This document shows positions 73-5,935 of a stretch of DNA of 6,167 nucleotides, piece after piece. The DNA lies in the NCBI GenBank assembly GCA_003136335.1, contig PLEA01000026.1:1367-7533 (forward strand), in the 5' to 3' direction. A program made the position numbers and the translations under genes. How positions within the stretch are numbered: the stretch's first letter is position 1; each line of letters opens with the position of its first letter. Under the pieces are notes generated by a model. The model did no database searches. It was not told the DNA's origin and saw only the letters and a program-made list of their open reading frames with translations. This stretch comes from Acidobacteriaceae bacterium (GTDB lineage: Bacteria; Acidobacteriota; Terriglobia; Terriglobales; SbA1).

Positions 73-1041
73 TTATTCTGCGATGAGCAGGTTCTCTGAA
101 AAGGGCCAGCGCTCATCGATCCATTGACACTCGCAACGGAAGCCCGCATCGCGCGCCGTCTCGACAATCTCCTCGGCCGAATACTTGTGGCTGCTTTCCG
201 TCCATATCGTTTCTCCTTCCTGAAACTCGACAGAGACCTCTGCCGCCGAAATAGTCACGATCTGTTTTCGCATTGATTGCAGGTGCATCTCCACACTACG
301 AACTTCGGGATTGATCTTCGCCAGATGGCGGAAGTGGCGCAAATCAAAGTCGGCGCCGAGCTCGCGATTCGTTCGGGAGAGTAGGTTGAGATTGAAGGCG
401 GCCGTCACCCCGAGTTCATCGTCGTAGGCTCCAAGCAGTTGCGCGGTGGATTTTTCCAGGTCTGCGCCCAGAAGCAAAGAGTCGCCCGACTGGAGAATGC
501 TTCGGACTGCCCCCAGAAACTTCACCCCTGCGGGGCGATCAAAGTTCCCAATCGTACTGCCCAGGAACAGTACGAACAGGCGCTGACCGCTCTTGCGATA
601 CGACGCGACCTCCAGTAGTCCATCGAGATATTCACGCTCAAAACCCACAATGCTGATGGCGTCAATGTCACTCAGTTCGCGCTCGCACATGACCAGAGCG
701 GAGCGAGATATTTCGACGGGATAATAGGACGTGCGCTGGCGCCGACAGAACGCTTCGAGCAGCCAGCGCGTTTTTTTACCGCTGCCACTTCCTAGTTCCG
801 CCACGGCAACTGGCCCGGCAAGGCGGTCCACGATCTCATCCGCGTGGCGCCGCAGTAAACGCTCGTCAGCCCGCGTGAGCCCATACTGCGGCAGGCGGCT
901 GATCACTTCAAAAAGAGCTGAACCGACATCGTCATACAGGTACTTGGAGGAAAGCTCTTTTTGTCCTGTCCGAGTAAGTCCGGCGCGAACGTCGGCAGCG
1001 AAGTCGTATGTGGCATTGCTAGGAATGGCGTGAACGAGCAT
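73..1041 (-). CDS. egtD: EgtD, L-histidine Nalpha-methyltransferase
   Basis: This cytoplasmic enzyme methylates the alpha-amino group of histidine three times with SAM to give hercynine, the first step of ergothioneine synthesis. The 322-aa product from the ATG at 1041 matches the usual length of about 321 aa. Visible motifs are the SAM-binding ELGSGSGKKT (82-91), FLGSTIGNFD (159-168), GADLEKS (192-198) and TESSHKYS (281-288). Asn166, Tyr206, Glu282 and Ser284 fall at the same numbers as the substrate-binding residues known from the mycobacterial enzyme, and Tyr53 corresponds to its Tyr56. These residues distinguish true EgtD from other DUF2260-type methyltransferases. A TTG 48 bp upstream would add 16 residues, but the ATG has a clear GAGGAG six bases before it. 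The gene lies 48 bp downstream of egtB on the same strand, so the two are probably one transcript. Confidence 0.93.
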   Translation of the reverse strand: MLVHAIPSNATYDFAADVRAGLTRTGQKELSSKYLYDDVGSALFEVISRLPQYGLTRADERLLRRHADEIVDRLAGPVAVAELGSGSGKKTRWLLEAFCRRQRTSYYPVEISRSALVMCERELSDIDAISIVGFEREYLDGLLEVASYRKSGQRLFVLFLGSTIGNFDRPAGVKFLGAVRSILQSGDSLLLGADLEKSTAQLLGAYDDELGVTAAFNLNLLSRTNRELGADFDLRHFRHLAKINPEVRSVEMHLQSMRKQIVTISAAEVSVEFQEGETIWTESSHKYSAEEIVETARDAGFRCECQWIDERWPFSENLLIAE

Positions 1042-1047
1042 TGCAAA

Positions 1048-1053
1048 CTCCTC
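1048..1053 (-). promoter_or_regulatory. Ribosome binding site of egtD
   Basis: On the minus strand GAGGAG sits six bases upstream of the ATG at 1041. It decides the egtD start in favour of this ATG over the TTG at 1089, which directly abuts the egtB stop codon. Confidence 0.8.
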
Positions 1054-1089
1054 TACTCCAGTGATTCGGCAAGTCAGGTGATTCGACAA

Positions 1090-2424
1090 TCAGTGATTCA
1101 CGCAGCGGAACCCCGCGTATACGTATTGGTAATGCGCCTGAAACCAGTTGCGAAATGTGGGCCGCAGCATGCACGCGGCGGTGCGCGGCGAACCGCCCTT
1201 CATGACAAAATGTTTGCCATCGAAAAAATTACCTGAATAGCCGGGGTAGAACGGGAATGGCTCGAACCCATGAAATGGCGCGAAAACGCTGGAAGTCCAC
1301 TCCCAGCCATTGCCTAACATGTCCTGTACGCCGAAAGCGCTGCGTCCCGCAGGAGAGGCATTTACCGGCGTCGGATTCCAATGGGTGAAATCAAAGTTGC
1401 CGAAAGTCGAATTCGGCGCTTCACGGCCCCACGGGTAATTTGTTTCGCCCCCGTCGGCTGTGCCATAGGCGGCGCGGTGCCAATGCTCTTCTGTGGGAAG
1501 TGCCTTCCCGGCCCAGCGCGCGTATGCGAGGGCCTCGGCATGACTGACATAAGCGGGCCAATCCATAGGGAGCGGGATTTTTTCGAACATTGCGCGGTAG
1601 AGCCATCCGTCAGGCGCCTTGGTCCAGAACACGGGATGCGAGACGGCATGCGCGGCCTTCCAGTTCCAGTCCTCGTCGTTCCAGAAAGCACGGGTTTCGT
1701 AGCCGCCGGCGGCCATGAATTCGAGGTATTGCCCGTTCGTCACCTCATACTCGTCAATCTCAAAGGCCGGCACCTGCACCGTGTGGGCTTCATACTCGTT
1801 ATCCCAGCCGAAAGTTTCGCCTCCGCGCCGGAGGCCTAGGGTTGCAACGCCAGCCGGAATCTCAATCATCCGATGGGTCACAGCCTCGGTTAGTAGATGC
1901 CGTGGATTTTCTTGCGGAACTTTTCGGTCGAGCGGCAATTGATGCAGCATGTAGGCCAGCGTCTCGACGTGCATCAGGCGATGCTCAATTGCGACGTTGA
2001 GCAGAGTGTCGAGCGGAAAACCGTCGCGGCCCTGCCCGTATGATTCCAGACTTCCGTCCGCCAGTTTCTCGTCGAGAGCCGCGCGAATTTTGGTCACGTA
2101 GTCGCGCACAGCGTCGAGAGACGGCCAGTCCGACGGCTGGTCGGAGGGCAATCCGCCGCCCACCGGATCGATACCGAAGGCAAACAGGCGATCGAAATCC
2201 AGATGAAAACTCTTCAGACCCAGGACGTTTTCGTGGAGGAGATTCCAGTCAAACGCCTCCAGATGCCCTACATAAAAGATGATGCGGTGACGCTCGGGAA
2301 TTGGCCGTTCGTAAAGGAAATTTGGTCGTACGATGTTGAAGAGTGCGTCACTTTGCGTGCGAGCATCGGAGACCCGCTCCAGTAGTTGACGACGGCCTGC
2401 GATCTCTTCTTGAGCAGCGAGCAT
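1090..2424 (-). CDS. egtB: EgtB, hercynine-type sulfoxide synthase
   Basis: This is a non-haem iron enzyme that uses O2 to join hercynine to a thiol donor, forming the sulfoxide precursor of ergothioneine. The 444-aa product has an N-terminal DinB-like helical domain and a C-terminal formylglycine-generating-enzyme/C-type-lectin-like domain (about 185-444; VTNGQYLEFM, ALPTEEHWHRAAYG, MLGNGWEWTSS, MKGGSPRT, YAGFRC). The expected iron ligands are visible: His54 in YVGHLEAFDW and His148 and His152 in EHRLMHVE. Its similarity in tone to acidobacterial EgtB, and the absence of egtA (gamma-Glu-Cys ligase) and egtC nearby, suggest a type II enzyme that uses free cysteine; this is inference. The ATG at 2424 has GGAGG four bases upstream. 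An upstream TTG at 2508 would add 28 residues of low-complexity sequence without an SD. Confidence 0.93.
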   Translation of the reverse strand: MLAAQEEIAGRRQLLERVSDARTQSDALFNIVRPNFLYERPIPERHRIIFYVGHLEAFDWNLLHENVLGLKSFHLDFDRLFAFGIDPVGGGLPSDQPSDWPSLDAVRDYVTKIRAALDEKLADGSLESYGQGRDGFPLDTLLNVAIEHRLMHVETLAYMLHQLPLDRKVPQENPRHLLTEAVTHRMIEIPAGVATLGLRRGGETFGWDNEYEAHTVQVPAFEIDEYEVTNGQYLEFMAAGGYETRAFWNDEDWNWKAAHAVSHPVFWTKAPDGWLYRAMFEKIPLPMDWPAYVSHAEALAYARWAGKALPTEEHWHRAAYGTADGGETNYPWGREAPNSTFGNFDFTHWNPTPVNASPAGRSAFGVQDMLGNGWEWTSSVFAPFHGFEPFPFYPGYSGNFFDGKHFVMKGGSPRTAACMLRPTFRNWFQAHYQYVYAGFRCVNH

Positions 2425-2428
2425 TGGG

Positions 2429-2433
2429 CCTCC
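2429..2433 (-). promoter_or_regulatory. Ribosome binding site of egtB
   Basis: GGAGG on the minus strand lies four bases before the ATG at 2424. The spacing is a little short, but it is the only SD near any candidate start. The 99-bp gap to the divergent phzF-like gene must hold promoters for both directions, but I see no convincing -35/-10 pair in it. Confidence 0.55.
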
Positions 2434-2523
2434 AAGTATATTGATTGGACGAGCATCCGACGAACGTGGATTCTCAAAATCCTCGCCCGCTTTCGGGTCG
2501 TTTCGCAAAGTAAAATAAAGAAG

Positions 2524-3318
2524 ATGCGGATTCCGCTATTTCACGTTGACGCATTCGCCAACCAGCCGTTCCGCGGCAATCCGGCCGCAGTCTGCCCTCT
2601 TCAAGAGTGGTTAGATGACGAGTTGCTGCGCAAGGTCGCCACTGAAAATAATCTTTCTGAGACCGCCTTTTTCATTTCCAGGGGCGACCATTACGATCTC
2701 CGGTGGTTTACGCCCCGTTGCGAGGTTAAGCTGTGCGGCCACGCGACCCTTGCATCGGCTTACGTGGTATTGAATCTGCTGCAACCCGGGCTGCGAGCGG
2801 TTCGATTCGAGACGCGGCGCAGCGGGGCTTTGACCGTCAGCAAGGACGGCGAAATGTTCGCAATGGACTTGCCGGCGCTGTTCGGGAAGACTCGCGCGCA
2901 TCCGCCAGAGGGGCTGATTGATGCTCTCGGACCGGGACCGTGTCCATCTGCTTTGCTGGAAGTGAATGACACGTATATTGCCGTGTACGACACCCAGGCT
3001 GCAATCCAAAACATCCGTCCTGATTTCGCGAAGCTGGAGGAACTTCATCCGTTTGCGGTCGCGGTGACGGCACCGGGGGAGGAGAGCGATTTCGTGTCGC
3101 GTTATTTTGCGCCCAGCTATGGAATCCCGGAAGATCCCGTGACCGGCTCGGCCCATTGTGCACTCACGCCATACTGGGCGGAGCGTTTGGGCATGACGCA
3201 TCTTTATGCACGCCAAGTGTCGGAGCGCGGTGGTGAACTCTGGTGCGAAATGGCCGGAGCCCGAGTCATTCTCAAAGGGAATGCAGTGTTCACGCTGCAG
3301 GGGGCACTGCAAATCTGA
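2524..3318 (+). CDS. PhzF-family isomerase/epimerase
   Basis: This is a complete 264-aa member of the PhzF / diaminopimelate-epimerase-like family. These cytoplasmic enzymes have two similar half-barrels and move protons on small substrates; PhzF itself isomerises trans-2,3-dihydro-3-hydroxyanthranilate in phenazine synthesis. Family motifs are all present: HVDAF at the N-terminus, GNPAAV (18-23), NNLSETAFF with the probable catalytic Glu46, LCGHATLASA (70-79) and EDPVTGSAHC (203-212). The ATG at 2524 begins exactly at the conserved MRIPLFHVDAF. The frame stays open upstream to 2386, but that stretch lies over egtB and its leader and looks non-coding. There are no other phenazine genes, so the true substrate is unknown. 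The divergent position next to egtBD could be chance or could reflect a shared role. Confidence 0.9.
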   Translation: MRIPLFHVDAFANQPFRGNPAAVCPLQEWLDDELLRKVATENNLSETAFFISRGDHYDLRWFTPRCEVKLCGHATLASAYVVLNLLQPGLRAVRFETRRSGALTVSKDGEMFAMDLPALFGKTRAHPPEGLIDALGPGPCPSALLEVNDTYIAVYDTQAAIQNIRPDFAKLEELHPFAVAVTAPGEESDFVSRYFAPSYGIPEDPVTGSAHCALTPYWAERLGMTHLYARQVSERGGELWCEMAGARVILKGNAVFTLQGALQI

Positions 3319-3341
3319 ATGACATTCGGGGAATTATCCAC

Positions 3342-3370
3342 TTGACATACCCATACTAGTTTGGTAGGGT
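3342..3370 (+). promoter_or_regulatory. Candidate promoter of the transposase gene
   Basis: A perfect TTGACA -35 (3342-3347) is followed after exactly 17 bases by TAGGGT (3365-3370), a weak -10. Transcription would begin near 3377, at or beside the second in-frame ATG of the transposase. The mRNA would then be leaderless or almost so, which fits the lack of an SD and would limit expression. Confidence 0.45.
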
Positions 3371-3379
3371 ATGAGTATG
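3346..3379. repeat. Inverted repeat over transposase promoter and start
   Basis: CATACCCATAC (3346-3356) and GTATGAGTATG (3369-3379) match as an inverted repeat in 10 of 11 positions around a 12-bp centre. The arms cover the end of the -35 box, the -10 box and both candidate ATG codons. This is the geometry of an operator for a dimeric repressor, or of an internal transposase-binding site. No regulator gene is present in the window. Confidence 0.5.
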
Positions 3380-4342
3380 AAAACCGAACCACAGCATGAG
3401 CTTTTCACGAATGAAGAAAAGGCTATCGCATTCTGGGAGAATCAGCGATGGCCTGATGGCGCGATCTGTCCTCATTGTGGTCTGGTAGGCGAAGCGTACA
3501 AGCTACAAGGCAAAAGCACTCGCCCCGGTCTGTGGAAATGCAAGGGATGCAGGAAACCGTTTACGGCAAAAATGCGCTCTATCTTTGAGGACTCGCATAT
3601 CCCGATGCACAAGTGGATGTATGCCATCCATCTGATGTGCTCCTCCAAAAAGGGTATGAGTGCGTTCCAATTCCACAGAATGACGGCGACGTTTTACGGC
3701 GAAAAAGTCTCTTACCGCACGGCGTGGTTCATGTTCCATCGGATTCGATTCGCAATGACGCAGCATCCAATGGTCGAGAAACTGAGCGGCACAATCGAAT
3801 GCGACGAGACCTATGTGGGCGGTAAAATTCGTGTAGGCACCTACAAACCCCGCGATGGGAAGAAACCAAAGTATCGTTCGCCGAGAGACAATAAGGCTTC
3901 CGTGTTTTCTGTTCTACAGCGTGGCGGCGATGTTCGCTCACGGCATGTCGAACGGGTCACGGCAGATAACCTCCGGCCCATCATAGACGAAATGATTGCC
4001 GAGGACGCACACGTAATGACGGACACTTCTACGGTGCTATCCAGCGCTCTCAAGAATCGGAAACACGATCAGGTAAACCACAGGCACGACGAATACGTTC
4101 GCTATGAAAATGGGAAGTGCATCACCACGAACACAGTGGAAGGCTATTTTAGCTTGCTGAAACGTGGCATCTACGGAACGTACCATCAGGTAGGGAAAGC
4201 CTACCTACAGCAGTATTTGAACGAATTTGATTTCAGGTACAACAGCCGAAAGATAACCGACATGGAGCGTTCATCGCTAGCGGTTAAGGCAACTGAGGGC
4301 AAGAGATTGACGCTCAAAAGGCCAGTCGGAAGGGTGGTCTAA
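3371..4342 (+). CDS. IS1595-family (ISXO2-like) DDE transposase
   Basis: This full-length 323-aa transposase cuts and joins the ends of its own IS. The N-terminus has a zinc ribbon, CPHC (33-36) and CKGC (57-60), typical of the IS1595 family, followed by a helical region (MHKWMYAIHLM, VSYRTAWFMFHRIR). The catalytic domain shows ECDETYVGGK with Asp145, HVMTD with Asp218 and TNTVEGYFSLLKRGIYG with Glu257, so the DDE triad appears complete. There is no frameshift or stop, and the usual C-terminal KATEGKRLT segment is present, so the protein may be active. Two in-frame ATGs (3371 and 3377) are possible starts and neither has an SD. It follows the phzF-like gene by 52 bp but has its own promoter candidate and is unlikely to belong to that unit. 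Confidence 0.93.
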   Translation: MSMKTEPQHELFTNEEKAIAFWENQRWPDGAICPHCGLVGEAYKLQGKSTRPGLWKCKGCRKPFTAKMRSIFEDSHIPMHKWMYAIHLMCSSKKGMSAFQFHRMTATFYGEKVSYRTAWFMFHRIRFAMTQHPMVEKLSGTIECDETYVGGKIRVGTYKPRDGKKPKYRSPRDNKASVFSVLQRGGDVRSRHVERVTADNLRPIIDEMIAEDAHVMTDTSTVLSSALKNRKHDQVNHRHDEYVRYENGKCITTNTVEGYFSLLKRGIYGTYHQVGKAYLQQYLNEFDFRYNSRKITDMERSSLAVKATEGKRLTLKRPVGRVV

Positions 4343-4376: not shown

Positions 4377-4496
4377 GAGGTTTAAATATTTCGTGAATTT
4401 TTGATAACGAATTGGGTTGTTTATATCCAGATCAATACAAAGGGCTTACGCGATGGTGTACGGTCGGATATTATACTCCTAGTGTCAAGTGTGCTA

Positions 4497-4526
4497 TTGC
4501 GCCCGCTTGCAGAATAAAGCTATCAT
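4497..4526 (+). promoter_or_regulatory. Candidate promoter of the small RNA
   Basis: TATCAT (4521-4526) matches the -10 consensus in five of six positions. TTGCGC lies 18 bp upstream as a weak -35 (three of six). Transcription would start near 4533, just ahead of the first hairpin of the RNA candidate. Confidence 0.3.
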
Positions 4527-4532
4527 GTCAAT

Positions 4533-4622
4533 AGGTTTTACTGTCCGGTGAAACTCCGGGCGATACCCATGCTCAAGGGCTTATTGGGCAAGGAACAGCC
4601 ACCGCAAGGTGGCTGTTTTTAT
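4533..4622 (+). ncRNA. Candidate small structured RNA, three hairpins
   Basis: Three consecutive perfect hairpins fill this stretch. Hairpin 1 pairs 4542-4548 with 4556-4562 (7 bp, one U-G and one G-U pair, loop UGAAACU). Hairpin 2 pairs 4570-4576 with 4584-4590 (7 bp, one U-G pair, loop GGGCUUA). Hairpin 3 is the terminator at 4594-4617. The GGG of loop 2 could pair with CCC at 4566-4568 as an alternative or pseudoknot contact. No coding frame here is convincing, and no same-strand gene follows the terminator, so this is not an obvious riboswitch leader. A free sRNA of about 90 nt is the simplest reading. I do not recognise the family. It lies just outside the candidate right IS end. Confidence 0.45.
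4594..4620 (+). terminator. Strong intrinsic terminator, GCAA tetraloop
   Basis: AACAGCCACC and GGTGGCTGTT form a perfect 10-bp stem capped by a stable GCAA tetraloop, followed by a run of five T and then ATTT. The U-tract lies only on the plus strand, so it ends transcripts coming from the left. On the other strand the same hairpin falls directly after the stop of the convergent gene but has no U-run. Confidence 0.88.
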
Positions 4623-5194
4623 TTGTGCCTAGGCCAAAGCGGTTGTCCGGTTACGCACGCTATCGCCCGATTTGGCTTGGTCAAATATGAAGTCACTACA
4701 ATGGTCTCATGGGTGGCTTTAATGTTCCGCGTGAAAACCAATTTCACGTTGGACCCAAGTTTGTCATAGACCTTGACGTACACTTCATCCGCCACTACCA
4801 CGCGGTGAATATTCGGATAAATGGCATCGGGCGTTCGCAAGACATCACAGATCCAAAACAAATCCTCGATTCGATCCAGCTCCCATTTGTAGGCATCCTC
4901 CTGTAGAGTACCCTCCTTCAACATGCGAACTAGAACGATCGGCCTAGCCGGATCGCCCTTCTTTTTGGGTTCGAGATTTAGAAACTTGGGGAAATTGTTT
5001 TCAATGATCTTTATTCTTCTCCCCCTGGGATCAACAATTGGGGAGTGGGCCAAAATGTCGCAACTGAATTTCTTAAAAGAATCCGTCAATCCAAGTTCGT
5101 TGTACGGGGGATGCTGGCAGCCCTTGCTGTGGAATACAAGCAAGTGGGCTACCGCCGGAACCGCGGTCGCGAGTTGTTCGCGGAGGTCGCCCAT
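4619..5194 (-). CDS. Hypothetical protein, PBECR-like nuclease fold
   Basis: This 191-aa protein belongs to no named function I can assign with certainty. Residues 52-70 (PIVDPRGRRIKIIENNFPK) and 103-172 (KWELDRIEDLFWICDVLRTP, DEVYVKVYDK, VKLVFTR, TIVVTSYLT) recall the PBECR group of phage-encoded barnase/EndoU/colicin E5-D/RelE-like nucleases. The shared pattern is a helix ending in an NPD/TPD-type turn, then a beta hairpin with a YVKxYxK strand and a final VVTSY strand. There is no signal peptide or membrane segment. The ATG at 5194 has no SD, and the frame is open upstream only to 5228, so the start is uncertain and residues 1-45 may be partly artefactual. The gene lies 120 bp downstream of the unusual tRNA on the same strand. 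Its TAA stop falls inside the U-tract of the convergent terminator. Confidence 0.6.
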   Translation of the reverse strand: MGDLREQLATAVPAVAHLLVFHSKGCQHPPYNELGLTDSFKKFSCDILAHSPIVDPRGRRIKIIENNFPKFLNLEPKKKGDPARPIVLVRMLKEGTLQEDAYKWELDRIEDLFWICDVLRTPDAIYPNIHRVVVADEVYVKVYDKLGSNVKLVFTRNIKATHETIVVTSYLTKPNRAIACVTGQPLWPRHK

Positions 5195-5314: not shown

Positions 5315-5421
5315 TGGTGCGGACGACGAGATTCGAACTCGCAATGGGATGTTGACCTTCCGAGGGGGCATCCCAAACTAGGGTCCAAGCCTAGCGCGTA
5401 TTCCAGTTCCGCCACGCCCGC
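5315..5421 (-). tRNA. tRNA, leucine-type body with UGG (Pro) anticodon
   Basis: All cloverleaf stems form. The acceptor pairs GCGGGCG with CGTCCGC (one G-U). The D arm is GCG-GAACTGGAATA-CGC, the typical leucine style. The anticodon arm is CTAGG-CTTGGAC-CCTAG. The T arm is GCGAG-TTCGAAT-CTCGT. A73 and an encoded CCA (5315-5317) are present. The anticodon at 5385-5387 is UGG, which reads proline CCN codons, whereas leucine tRNAs carry NAA or NAG. Residue 37 is A, not the G usual in proline tRNAs. Proline tRNAs also have a short variable loop and C1-G72; this one has G1-C72 and a class II variable arm of 35 nt (5343-5377) with a 7-bp stem, far above the usual 12-16 nt for leucine. It would therefore probably be charged with leucine. 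It lies 55 bp after the 129-aa gene and has no clear promoter of its own, so it may be cut from that transcript. Confidence 0.85.
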
Positions 5422-5429
5422 GTGTTGAC

Positions 5430-5474
5430 GGTCAGCGATCGGCTCGCCCTCCAAGACTTGCCTACTCGCTGGCC
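5430..5474 (-). other. Inverted repeat ahead of the tRNA
   Basis: On the minus strand GGCCAGCGA (5466-5474) and TCGCTGACC (5430-5438) are complementary in eight of nine positions around a 27-base loop. They fill the spacer between the 129-aa gene and the tRNA. They could isolate the tRNA for RNase P/RNase E processing; there is no terminator U-run. Confidence 0.25.
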
Positions 5475-5476
5475 GT

Positions 5477-5866
5477 TTATTTACGCTTACCCCTTTCCAG
5501 TACCCTCGCCTCCATAGGTTTTGATAGATCAACGGATAGTATCTTGTCCTTTTCATTAAACACAGCAGCGTATTTGATAGTTTTTATCGGGAAAATCTTG
5601 TATGTCTTCAGAAATGACATACCCGAAAGCGAGGCATGGCTCTTACTAGCTGTAGTCTTTACAGAATAGGCATCTGGATCATTTTGCTTGATGAACTTTA
5701 TGCCCATAAGCTGACGTTCCTTGTCGAAGAACAGAAGGGCATATTTAGAGTCACCCATGACGTTCTTCGCTACTGCTGTATTGAGGCCAATGATGCCACT
5801 GACACTCAACGTGACTGTAGGATCCTTAGGGCTAGGTTTTGAACTGCGCTTGAATTGCTCCCACAT
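5477..5866 (-). CDS. Hypothetical protein, 129 aa, beta-rich
   Basis: I do not recognise a named family. The product is soluble, basic (pI clearly high; C-terminal ERGKRK) and strand-rich. It has a core TVTLSVSGIIGLNTAV (17-32) then YALLFFDKERQLMGIKFI (42-59), SHASLSGMSFLKTY (76-89) and a final KILSVDLSK strand (108-116). No signal peptide, membrane helix or catalytic motif is evident. The regular alternating pattern looks like a genuine, conserved small domain rather than a shadow ORF. Support for expression is strong: GGAGGG lies nine bases before the ATG and a near-consensus promoter lies about 40 bp upstream. It is first in a possible minus-strand transcript that continues into the tRNA and then the nuclease-like gene. 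Confidence 0.8.
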   Translation of the reverse strand: MWEQFKRSSKPSPKDPTVTLSVSGIIGLNTAVAKNVMGDSKYALLFFDKERQLMGIKFIKQNDPDAYSVKTTASKSHASLSGMSFLKTYKIFPIKTIKYAAVFNEKDKILSVDLSKPMEARVLERGKRK

Positions 5867-5906: not shown

Positions 5907-5935
5907 ATTATAAGTGTTTGTACCAGGAGAGTCAA
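5907..5935 (-). promoter_or_regulatory. Strong sigma70 promoter, minus strand
   Basis: TTGACT (5930-5935; five of six matches) and TATAAT (5907-5912; perfect) are separated by exactly 17 bp. Transcription should begin near 5900 and give a 34-nt leader before the 129-aa ORF. It is the best promoter in the window and may serve the gene, the tRNA and possibly the nuclease-like gene. Confidence 0.85.

Follow-up and report, generated by a model that had tools for sequence, protein, structure and literature searches.

The stretch of DNA analysed here (the window) is 6,167 nucleotides long and carries an IS1595-type transposase and a tRNA gene in which a leucine-type body has a proline anticodon. 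They lie beside three genes recognised by Pfam matches, and the features of the window are as follows.

73 to 1089, minus strand: gene that we take to be EgtD-like.
1090 to 2508, minus strand: gene that is presumably EgtB-like.
2386 to 3318, plus strand: PhzF-like gene.
3329 to 3350, plus strand: transposase-side terminal inverted repeat (TIR), GGGAATTATCCACTTGACATAC, 10 bp behind the phzF stop codon.
3371 to 4342, plus strand: IS1595-type transposase, convergent with the tRNA (PF12762, E 3e-33; PF12760, E 3e-12).
4619 to 5194, minus strand: 191-aa ORF between tRNA and transposase, with no Pfam match; the database has 17 such proteins, this one among them, and no Pfam domain in any.
5315 to 5421, minus strand: class II tRNA with leucine-type body, UGG anticodon and encoded CCA (Rfam match, parsing and pattern relatives).
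5343 to 5377, minus strand: variable region of the tRNA, 35 nt, with a 7-bp stem UGGGAUG/CAUCCCA (parsing).
5385 to 5387, minus strand: anticodon UGG in the loop CUUGGAC (Rfam alignment, parsing).
5428 to 5476, minus strand: imperfect hairpin between the tRNA and the stop codon of the 129-aa ORF, arms of 11 positions with one mismatch.
5477 to 5866, minus strand: 129-aa ORF on the strand of the tRNA and upstream of it, with no Pfam match; the database has 21 such proteins, this one among them, and no Pfam domain in any.
5907 to 5935, minus strand: promoter-like TTGACT-17-TATAAT (11/12), upstream of the 129-aa ORF and the tRNA; weak, because two such sites were found against 2.0 expected in shuffles.

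The tRNA matched the Rfam tRNA model RF00005 from 5421 to 5318 with 49.9 bits (E 1e-08, cut-off 29). The initial annotation had placed an intact leucine-type cloverleaf with UGG at 5315 to 5421; these coordinates are right, and the gene is read on the minus strand, from 5421 to 5315. Parsing showed an acceptor stem paired at 7/7 positions (one G-U) with G1-C72, A73 and an encoded CCA, an anticodon stem paired at 5/5 with the loop CUUGGAC and A37, and a T stem paired at 5/5 with the loop UUCGAAU. The core is of leucine type (A14, A15-U48, G18G19), and the 35-nt variable region is longer than the 13-17 nt of 15 canonical leucine tRNAs from three genomes. ARAGORN reported no tRNA on the window, probably because of this region. 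In 274 kb from 40 loci there were 46 tRNA-like structures against a mean of 0.67 after shuffling of the same loci, which had been selected for holding such tRNAs, and the 46 include ordinary host tRNAs and one doubtful match. The window tRNA is not a chance structure. It marks a blind spot of annotation, where ARAGORN misses the gene and naming by anticodon only labels its relatives as tRNA-Pro.

A search for relatives with the same anticodon, as the initial annotation had proposed, was made with a pattern of leucine D arm, correct spacing and UGG, and gave 93 stretches in GTDB contigs and 22 in viral contigs. Complete leucine-type cloverleafs with UGG were obtained from 74 of 124 scored matches, with the window included and some elements met twice (L109/L111, L069/L081); the match L078, which extended past the edge of its locus, is outside this count. 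The other 50 were dropped as incomplete cloverleafs, many of which resemble by eye intron-bearing tRNA-Leu or half-tRNA repeats of Clostridia. According to record titles, the complete UGG members span Acidobacteria, Alpha-, Beta- and Gammaproteobacteria, Planctomycetota, Chloroflexi and Verrucomicrobia. The record of L002 (genome G001) is titled Betaproteobacteria, and its class sample overlaps that of G003, an Acidobacteriia record, so this title may be wrong.

The median identity to the window tRNA is about 60% across the family. Among 77 distinct members (those with UGG or AGG, and in addition L147 and L236), A73 is present in 74, G1-C72 in 66, U48 in 76, A37 in 49 and G37 in 28, and A15, which the pattern favours, in all 77. 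Compensated pair changes occur in all three stems, which the parser demands to be mostly paired, and the variable stem, where no pairing is demanded, has a mean of 4.7 bp against 2.3 in shuffles (75 members). This agrees with the earlier view that intact stems argue against simple decay, as all stems pair in the window and compensatory changes run across the family. Most members have a variable region of either 14-20 nt or 27-50 nt, and two have one of 6-7 nt; long variable arms are a trait of part of the family.

Profile search found an IS1595-type transposase within 3 kb of 44 of the 74 UGG tRNAs (29 convergent, 12 tandem and 3 divergent), and of 7/16 when viral contigs alone were counted. 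As a control, a viral scan of leucine bodies had, among the matches listed, a transposase within 2.5 kb of 2/57 tRNAs with other non-leucine anticodons, and near 1/6 UGG tRNAs of the same scan, again among the matches listed. There was no transposase within 3 kb of 30/74 UGG tRNAs, some of them with ample flanks (L097, L095, L013, L059), and at 104 of 138 transposases the strict parser, which misses some tRNAs, found no convergent tRNA within 2 kb.

By automatic search, TIRs plus an exact 8-bp duplication surround the tRNA at 22/90 loci, compared with 3/450 shuffled controls, and the transposase lies inside them in 22/22. These complete elements are 1799-3554 bp long (median 2702), and element ends read CGGAATTATNCACTTGACAA or CGGAAGTATGTACTTGACGC. 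Inspection by eye recognised ten loci in which the tRNA lies between paired ends with an exact 8-bp duplication (L016, L040, L053, L061, L070, L086, L088, L102, L110, L123). The ends of L034 carry a 9-base repeat, and those of L169, both present, lack a duplication. Because TIRs and 8-bp duplications enclose both transposase and tRNA, the tRNA is in these relatives a cargo gene of an IS1595-type transposon. The flanks of the insertion sites in L102, L110 and L123 are by eye palindromic or T-rich, as if the elements had gone into terminator hairpins.

The window transposase has the zinc-ribbon (PF12760) and DDE transposase (PF12762) domains of IS1595 above cut-off, and blastp put it in one cluster with 39 ORFs, some partial, each within 3 kb of another UGG tRNA. 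Comparison of its sequence with solved structures gave no match at E 0.001. The transposase nearest to it, that of L002, is 84% identical and is followed after 9 bp by a tRNA of this kind.

Because the first pattern demanded UGG, searches were also started from the transposase, and gave 170 loci, several of them repeating loci already in the set; the strict parser and ARAGORN were run on all 170, the relaxed parser and Rfam each on part. Outside the UGG-pattern loci, 16 further leucine-type class II tRNAs lay within 2 kb of a transposase. Ten have UGG (L123, L171, L187, L342, L354, L358, L365, L378, L380, L389), one AGG (L117), three UGC (L206, L359, L391), one UUA (L394) and one GGA (L147), and none has a leucine anticodon. 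By eye, all 16 have A73, A14 and A15; L187 and L389 have C33, and the UGC loci L359 and L391 are complete elements with TIRs. Two changes go together in L354, L378 and L380, where AG replaces GG in the D loop and TGC replaces TTC in the T loop; this coupling suggests that the tertiary core is kept. Ordinary leucine tRNAs of phage arrays (L140, L168, L192) lie farther from the transposase. Set aside from this set were L116 (serine-type, UAU), L142 and L335, in which inspection by eye showed no cloverleaf, and the phage tRNA array of L140.

The viral scan of leucine bodies added, among the matches listed, UGC in L236 and UUA in L284. A long-variable-arm pattern free of the anticodon found six viral stretches, five with UGG and one with AGG, the latter about 4 kb from a transposase, and matched 1/297 genomes of one phylum (UGG). 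As the 16 tRNAs include no leucine anticodon and the long-arm pattern gave five UGG and one AGG, a non-leucine anticodon on a leucine body is the rule in these transposons, with UGG as the main form. The mismatch looks maintained rather than accidental because related transposons in distant bacteria keep it. The initial annotation had foreseen neither the transposon setting, nor the AGG, UGC, UUA and GGA sister elements, nor the long variable arms.

The identity elements of the window tRNA were compared with those of E. coli. In the available part of PMC9976931, LeuRS of E. coli reads A73, A15-U48, G18G19 and A20a and ignores the anticodon and the variable arm, as had been assumed at the outset for E. 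coli-type systems. The window tRNA has the complete leucine set of that text (A73, U8-A14, A15-U48, G18G19, A20a) and lacks the leucine anticodon (A35), having UGG instead. With the anticodon omitted, it was compared with the canonical tRNAs of three genomes, and mean similarity was 0.736 for Leu (15), 0.637 for Tyr (3), 0.622 for Pro (4) and 0.607 for Ser (11), which bears out the leucine-like body first read from the sequence. With the anticodon included the means were close (Leu 0.668, Pro 0.659), and the nearest single tRNA was Leu (0.754) against Pro (0.696). In that comparison the nearest canonical tRNA of the 77 members is Leu for 72, Pro for 4 and Ser for 1, and by mean similarity Leu for 62, Pro for 14 and Tyr for 1. 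Charging of the window tRNA with leucine by LeuRS is plausible, because the E. coli enzyme uses A73, A15-U48, G18G19 and A20a without the anticodon (PMC9976931, in the part available).

On this basis we propose that the tRNA and the upstream passenger ORF may be on one transcript, from which RNase P would free the tRNA. Host LeuRS, blind to the anticodon, would charge it with leucine, and the charged tRNA could pair with CCN codons. Acting weakly, or in certain conditions, it would thus be a mobile missense suppressor that replaces proline by leucine, and with the sister elements leucine could enter at Ala, Ser or UAA codons. We think it probable that the cargo tRNA is charged by LeuRS and able to pair with CCN, that is, a mobile code-breaking tRNA comparable to the nev-tRNAs of nematodes; its expression, charging and insertion of leucine for proline are what we infer from the sequence. 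If it is charged with leucine, a mobile genetic element would be spreading a code-breaking adaptor among distant bacteria, and the use of mistranslation, suppression or tRNA mimicry by transposons, together with the upkeep of a wrong anticodon, would become directly testable.

A wider proposal is offered tentatively and is at present rather doubtful: a dispersed class of bacterial transposons would maintain a tRNA that accepts leucine and whose anticodon, mostly UGG, is not one for leucine. Code-breaking would then be mobile and horizontally spread, with leucine put at Pro (or Ala, Ser, UAA) codons in messages of the host or of the element in certain conditions, and selection would keep the leucine identity as well as the wrong anticodon. 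That the tRNA serves to recode the transposase of its own element was considered and rejected. Proline codons make up 3.68% in transposases with the tRNA (31) and 3.57% in those without (104), and only one leucine-rich transposase column has Pro, in 2/31; with equal proline-codon content and this single column, no need of the element's own gene for leucine at CCN was seen. The filling of a gap in the host was not supported, as a canonical tRNA-Pro pattern, allowing up to 2 mismatches and so admitting other proline anticodons, matched in 25/30 genomes. Three genomes which carry such tRNAs (G001, G003, G268) have all five canonical leucine anticodons; canonical Pro(UGG) is present in G003 and G268, and the tRNA-Pro pattern had no match in G001.

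Alternatively, the cargo RNA could work off the ribosome as a tRNA-like regulatory or structural RNA: a 3'-end processing module for the passenger transcript, a barrier or antisense against the convergent transposase, or a decoy for a tRNA-cutting enzyme or LeuRS. The convergent order in 29/44, with gaps of sometimes 1-9 bp (L012, L002), would suit such a role, as would the outsized variable arms, the other anticodons of the sister elements and the irregular second tRNA-like sequences in L034, L070, L092 and L354. An upstream hairpin in many loci points in the same direction: a perfect stem of at least 8 bp occurs in the 90 nt upstream of the tRNA in 57/75 loci and downstream in 36/75, and the longest perfect stem has a mean of 10.3 bp upstream, 7.9 bp downstream and 7.2 bp after shuffling (75 loci). 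The window hairpin is weak, its longest perfect stem of 6 bp being equal to its shuffles. However, the anticodon stays mostly NGG (11/16 in the anticodon-blind set) while the rest diverges, and the family keeps A73, the leucine core and the 7-nt loop, features that a purely structural module could do without. We regard this role as a serious candidate but unlikely.

Homologues of the 129-aa ORF were found neither in 250 genomes nor in viral contigs. The passenger ORFs beside other tRNAs appear by eye to have a coiled coil and a winged helix, with HARE-HTH and Mrr_N Pfam matches below cut-off, and their joint alignment is poor.

It is also conceivable that ProRS charges the tRNA through G35, G36, A37 and A73, making it a proline tRNA in a leucine-like body that decodes CCN correctly. 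The available part of PMC9976931 gives G72, G35 and A37 as strong proline determinants in E. coli, followed by G36, A73 and G15-C48; four of these, G35, A37, G36 and A73, are present in the window tRNA together with the UGG anticodon, and G72 and G15-C48 are absent. The closeness of the Leu and Pro means with the anticodon included fits this reading, and C1-G72, as in the four host proline tRNAs of the genomes compared, is found in 6/77 members. But those host tRNAs have a 5-nt variable loop together with C1-G72, whereas the window tRNA has G1-C72, A15-U48 and a 35-nt variable region, and G1-C72 prevails in 66/77 members. The UGC, UUA and GGA sister elements, with the same kind of body, fit LeuRS and not ProRS. 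We consider charging by ProRS quite improbable.

For the window itself, a plain IS1595 element might lie by chance near an independent tRNA-bearing stretch. One TIR only was found in the window, at 3329, and its partner, which would have ATAATTCCC at its end, was not; the left-flank 8-mer GACATTCG occurs once, and with one end a duplication is not visible. A stretch at about 4481-4503 that contains TGTCAAGTG resembles part of a TIR, and the gap of 973 bp between tRNA and transposase is exceeded only by L102 among the convergent loci listed. Against chance proximity, that stretch is not followed by the 8-mer which precedes the left end, the L002 transposase, the nearest one, has such a tRNA directly behind it, and L053, L102 and L110 have other genes between the two with both ends outside. 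Chance proximity is very improbable, and the partner end of the window element may lie beyond 6167.

The initial annotation had also listed a recent A35G relic of tRNA-Leu(UAG). Such a host tRNA, decaying or lately mutated, can be practically dismissed: UAG and UGG are one base apart, but all stems are paired, the variable region has 35 nt, the host's own Leu(UAG) is retained in three genomes that carry such mismatched tRNAs, and a diverged, dispersed family with compensatory changes, already contradicting a recent relic, keeps the same mismatch inside IS1595-type transposons.

The mobile leucine-type tRNA with a wrong anticodon can be compared with several known systems. It shares with canonical bacterial tRNA-Leu the D arm, A15-U48, A73 and G1-C72, and differs by its proline anticodon, its 35-nt variable region and its mobility. 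The transposase domains, TIRs and 8-bp duplications of the tRNA-bearing elements are those of IS1595-family transposons, which habitually carry passenger genes; the conserved tRNA cargo is a feature of the elements described here. The closest analogue is the nev-tRNAs of nematodes, which are class II, accept leucine in vitro and have non-leucine anticodons (Gly CCC, Ile UAU), with mistranslation undetectable in C. elegans (PMC4300185, available part). The comparison is of the way of working only: those are nematode genes with leucine charging in vitro, whereas the tRNA here is bacterial, transposon-borne and mainly UGG, with leucine charging predicted. Allo-tRNAs (Mukai et al. 2017, via the available part of the review PMC7609411) have many non-cognate anticodons, Acidobacteria among their hosts, and one pseudogene that overlaps a transposon ORF. 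Their acceptor branch is of the 8/4 or 9/3 type and their identity is Ser or Ala, whereas the Rfam alignment shows a 7-bp acceptor and a 5-bp T stem in the leucine-type window tRNA. The tRNA-ProX of Streptomyces and Kitasatospora (PMC11415595, in part) are likewise bacterial tRNAs of dual identity, with Ala, Asn and Thr anticodons on proline bodies, whereas here a leucine body has a proline anticodon. In the open-licence literature searched, titles and beginnings of abstracts mentioned no IS1595 element with a tRNA and no bacterial leucine tRNA with a proline anticodon.

Some other unusual tRNAs were met in these searches. Leucine-type tRNAs with UUA (ochre) and a near-constant anticodon arm occur in L284, L394 and L436 and in the viral L217, L229, L245, L293 and L307; L284 and L394 are near an IS1595 transposase, and L436 has none in its 7-kb stretch. 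The serine-like tRNA of L116 (2922-3017, plus strand; UAU, G73) lies 1.6 kb from an IS1595 transposase and recalls allo-tRNA-UAU (PMC7609411, available part). Class II tRNAs with GUU, mostly with G73 (L227, L238, L240 and others), made up 19/63 in the viral scan, among the matches listed. Second irregular tRNA-like sequences with short or odd D arms stand directly beside the leucine-type tRNA in L034 (4596-4665, plus), L070 (2835-2900, minus), L092 (2970-3037, plus), L354 (2642-2714, minus) and L394 (2669-2739, minus). In the Clostridia contigs L058 (384-2178, minus; 8 matches), L023 and L050, a 5' half of tRNA-Leu is repeated and is followed by a shared GGGC..GCG.TACTACAGTGGA stretch.
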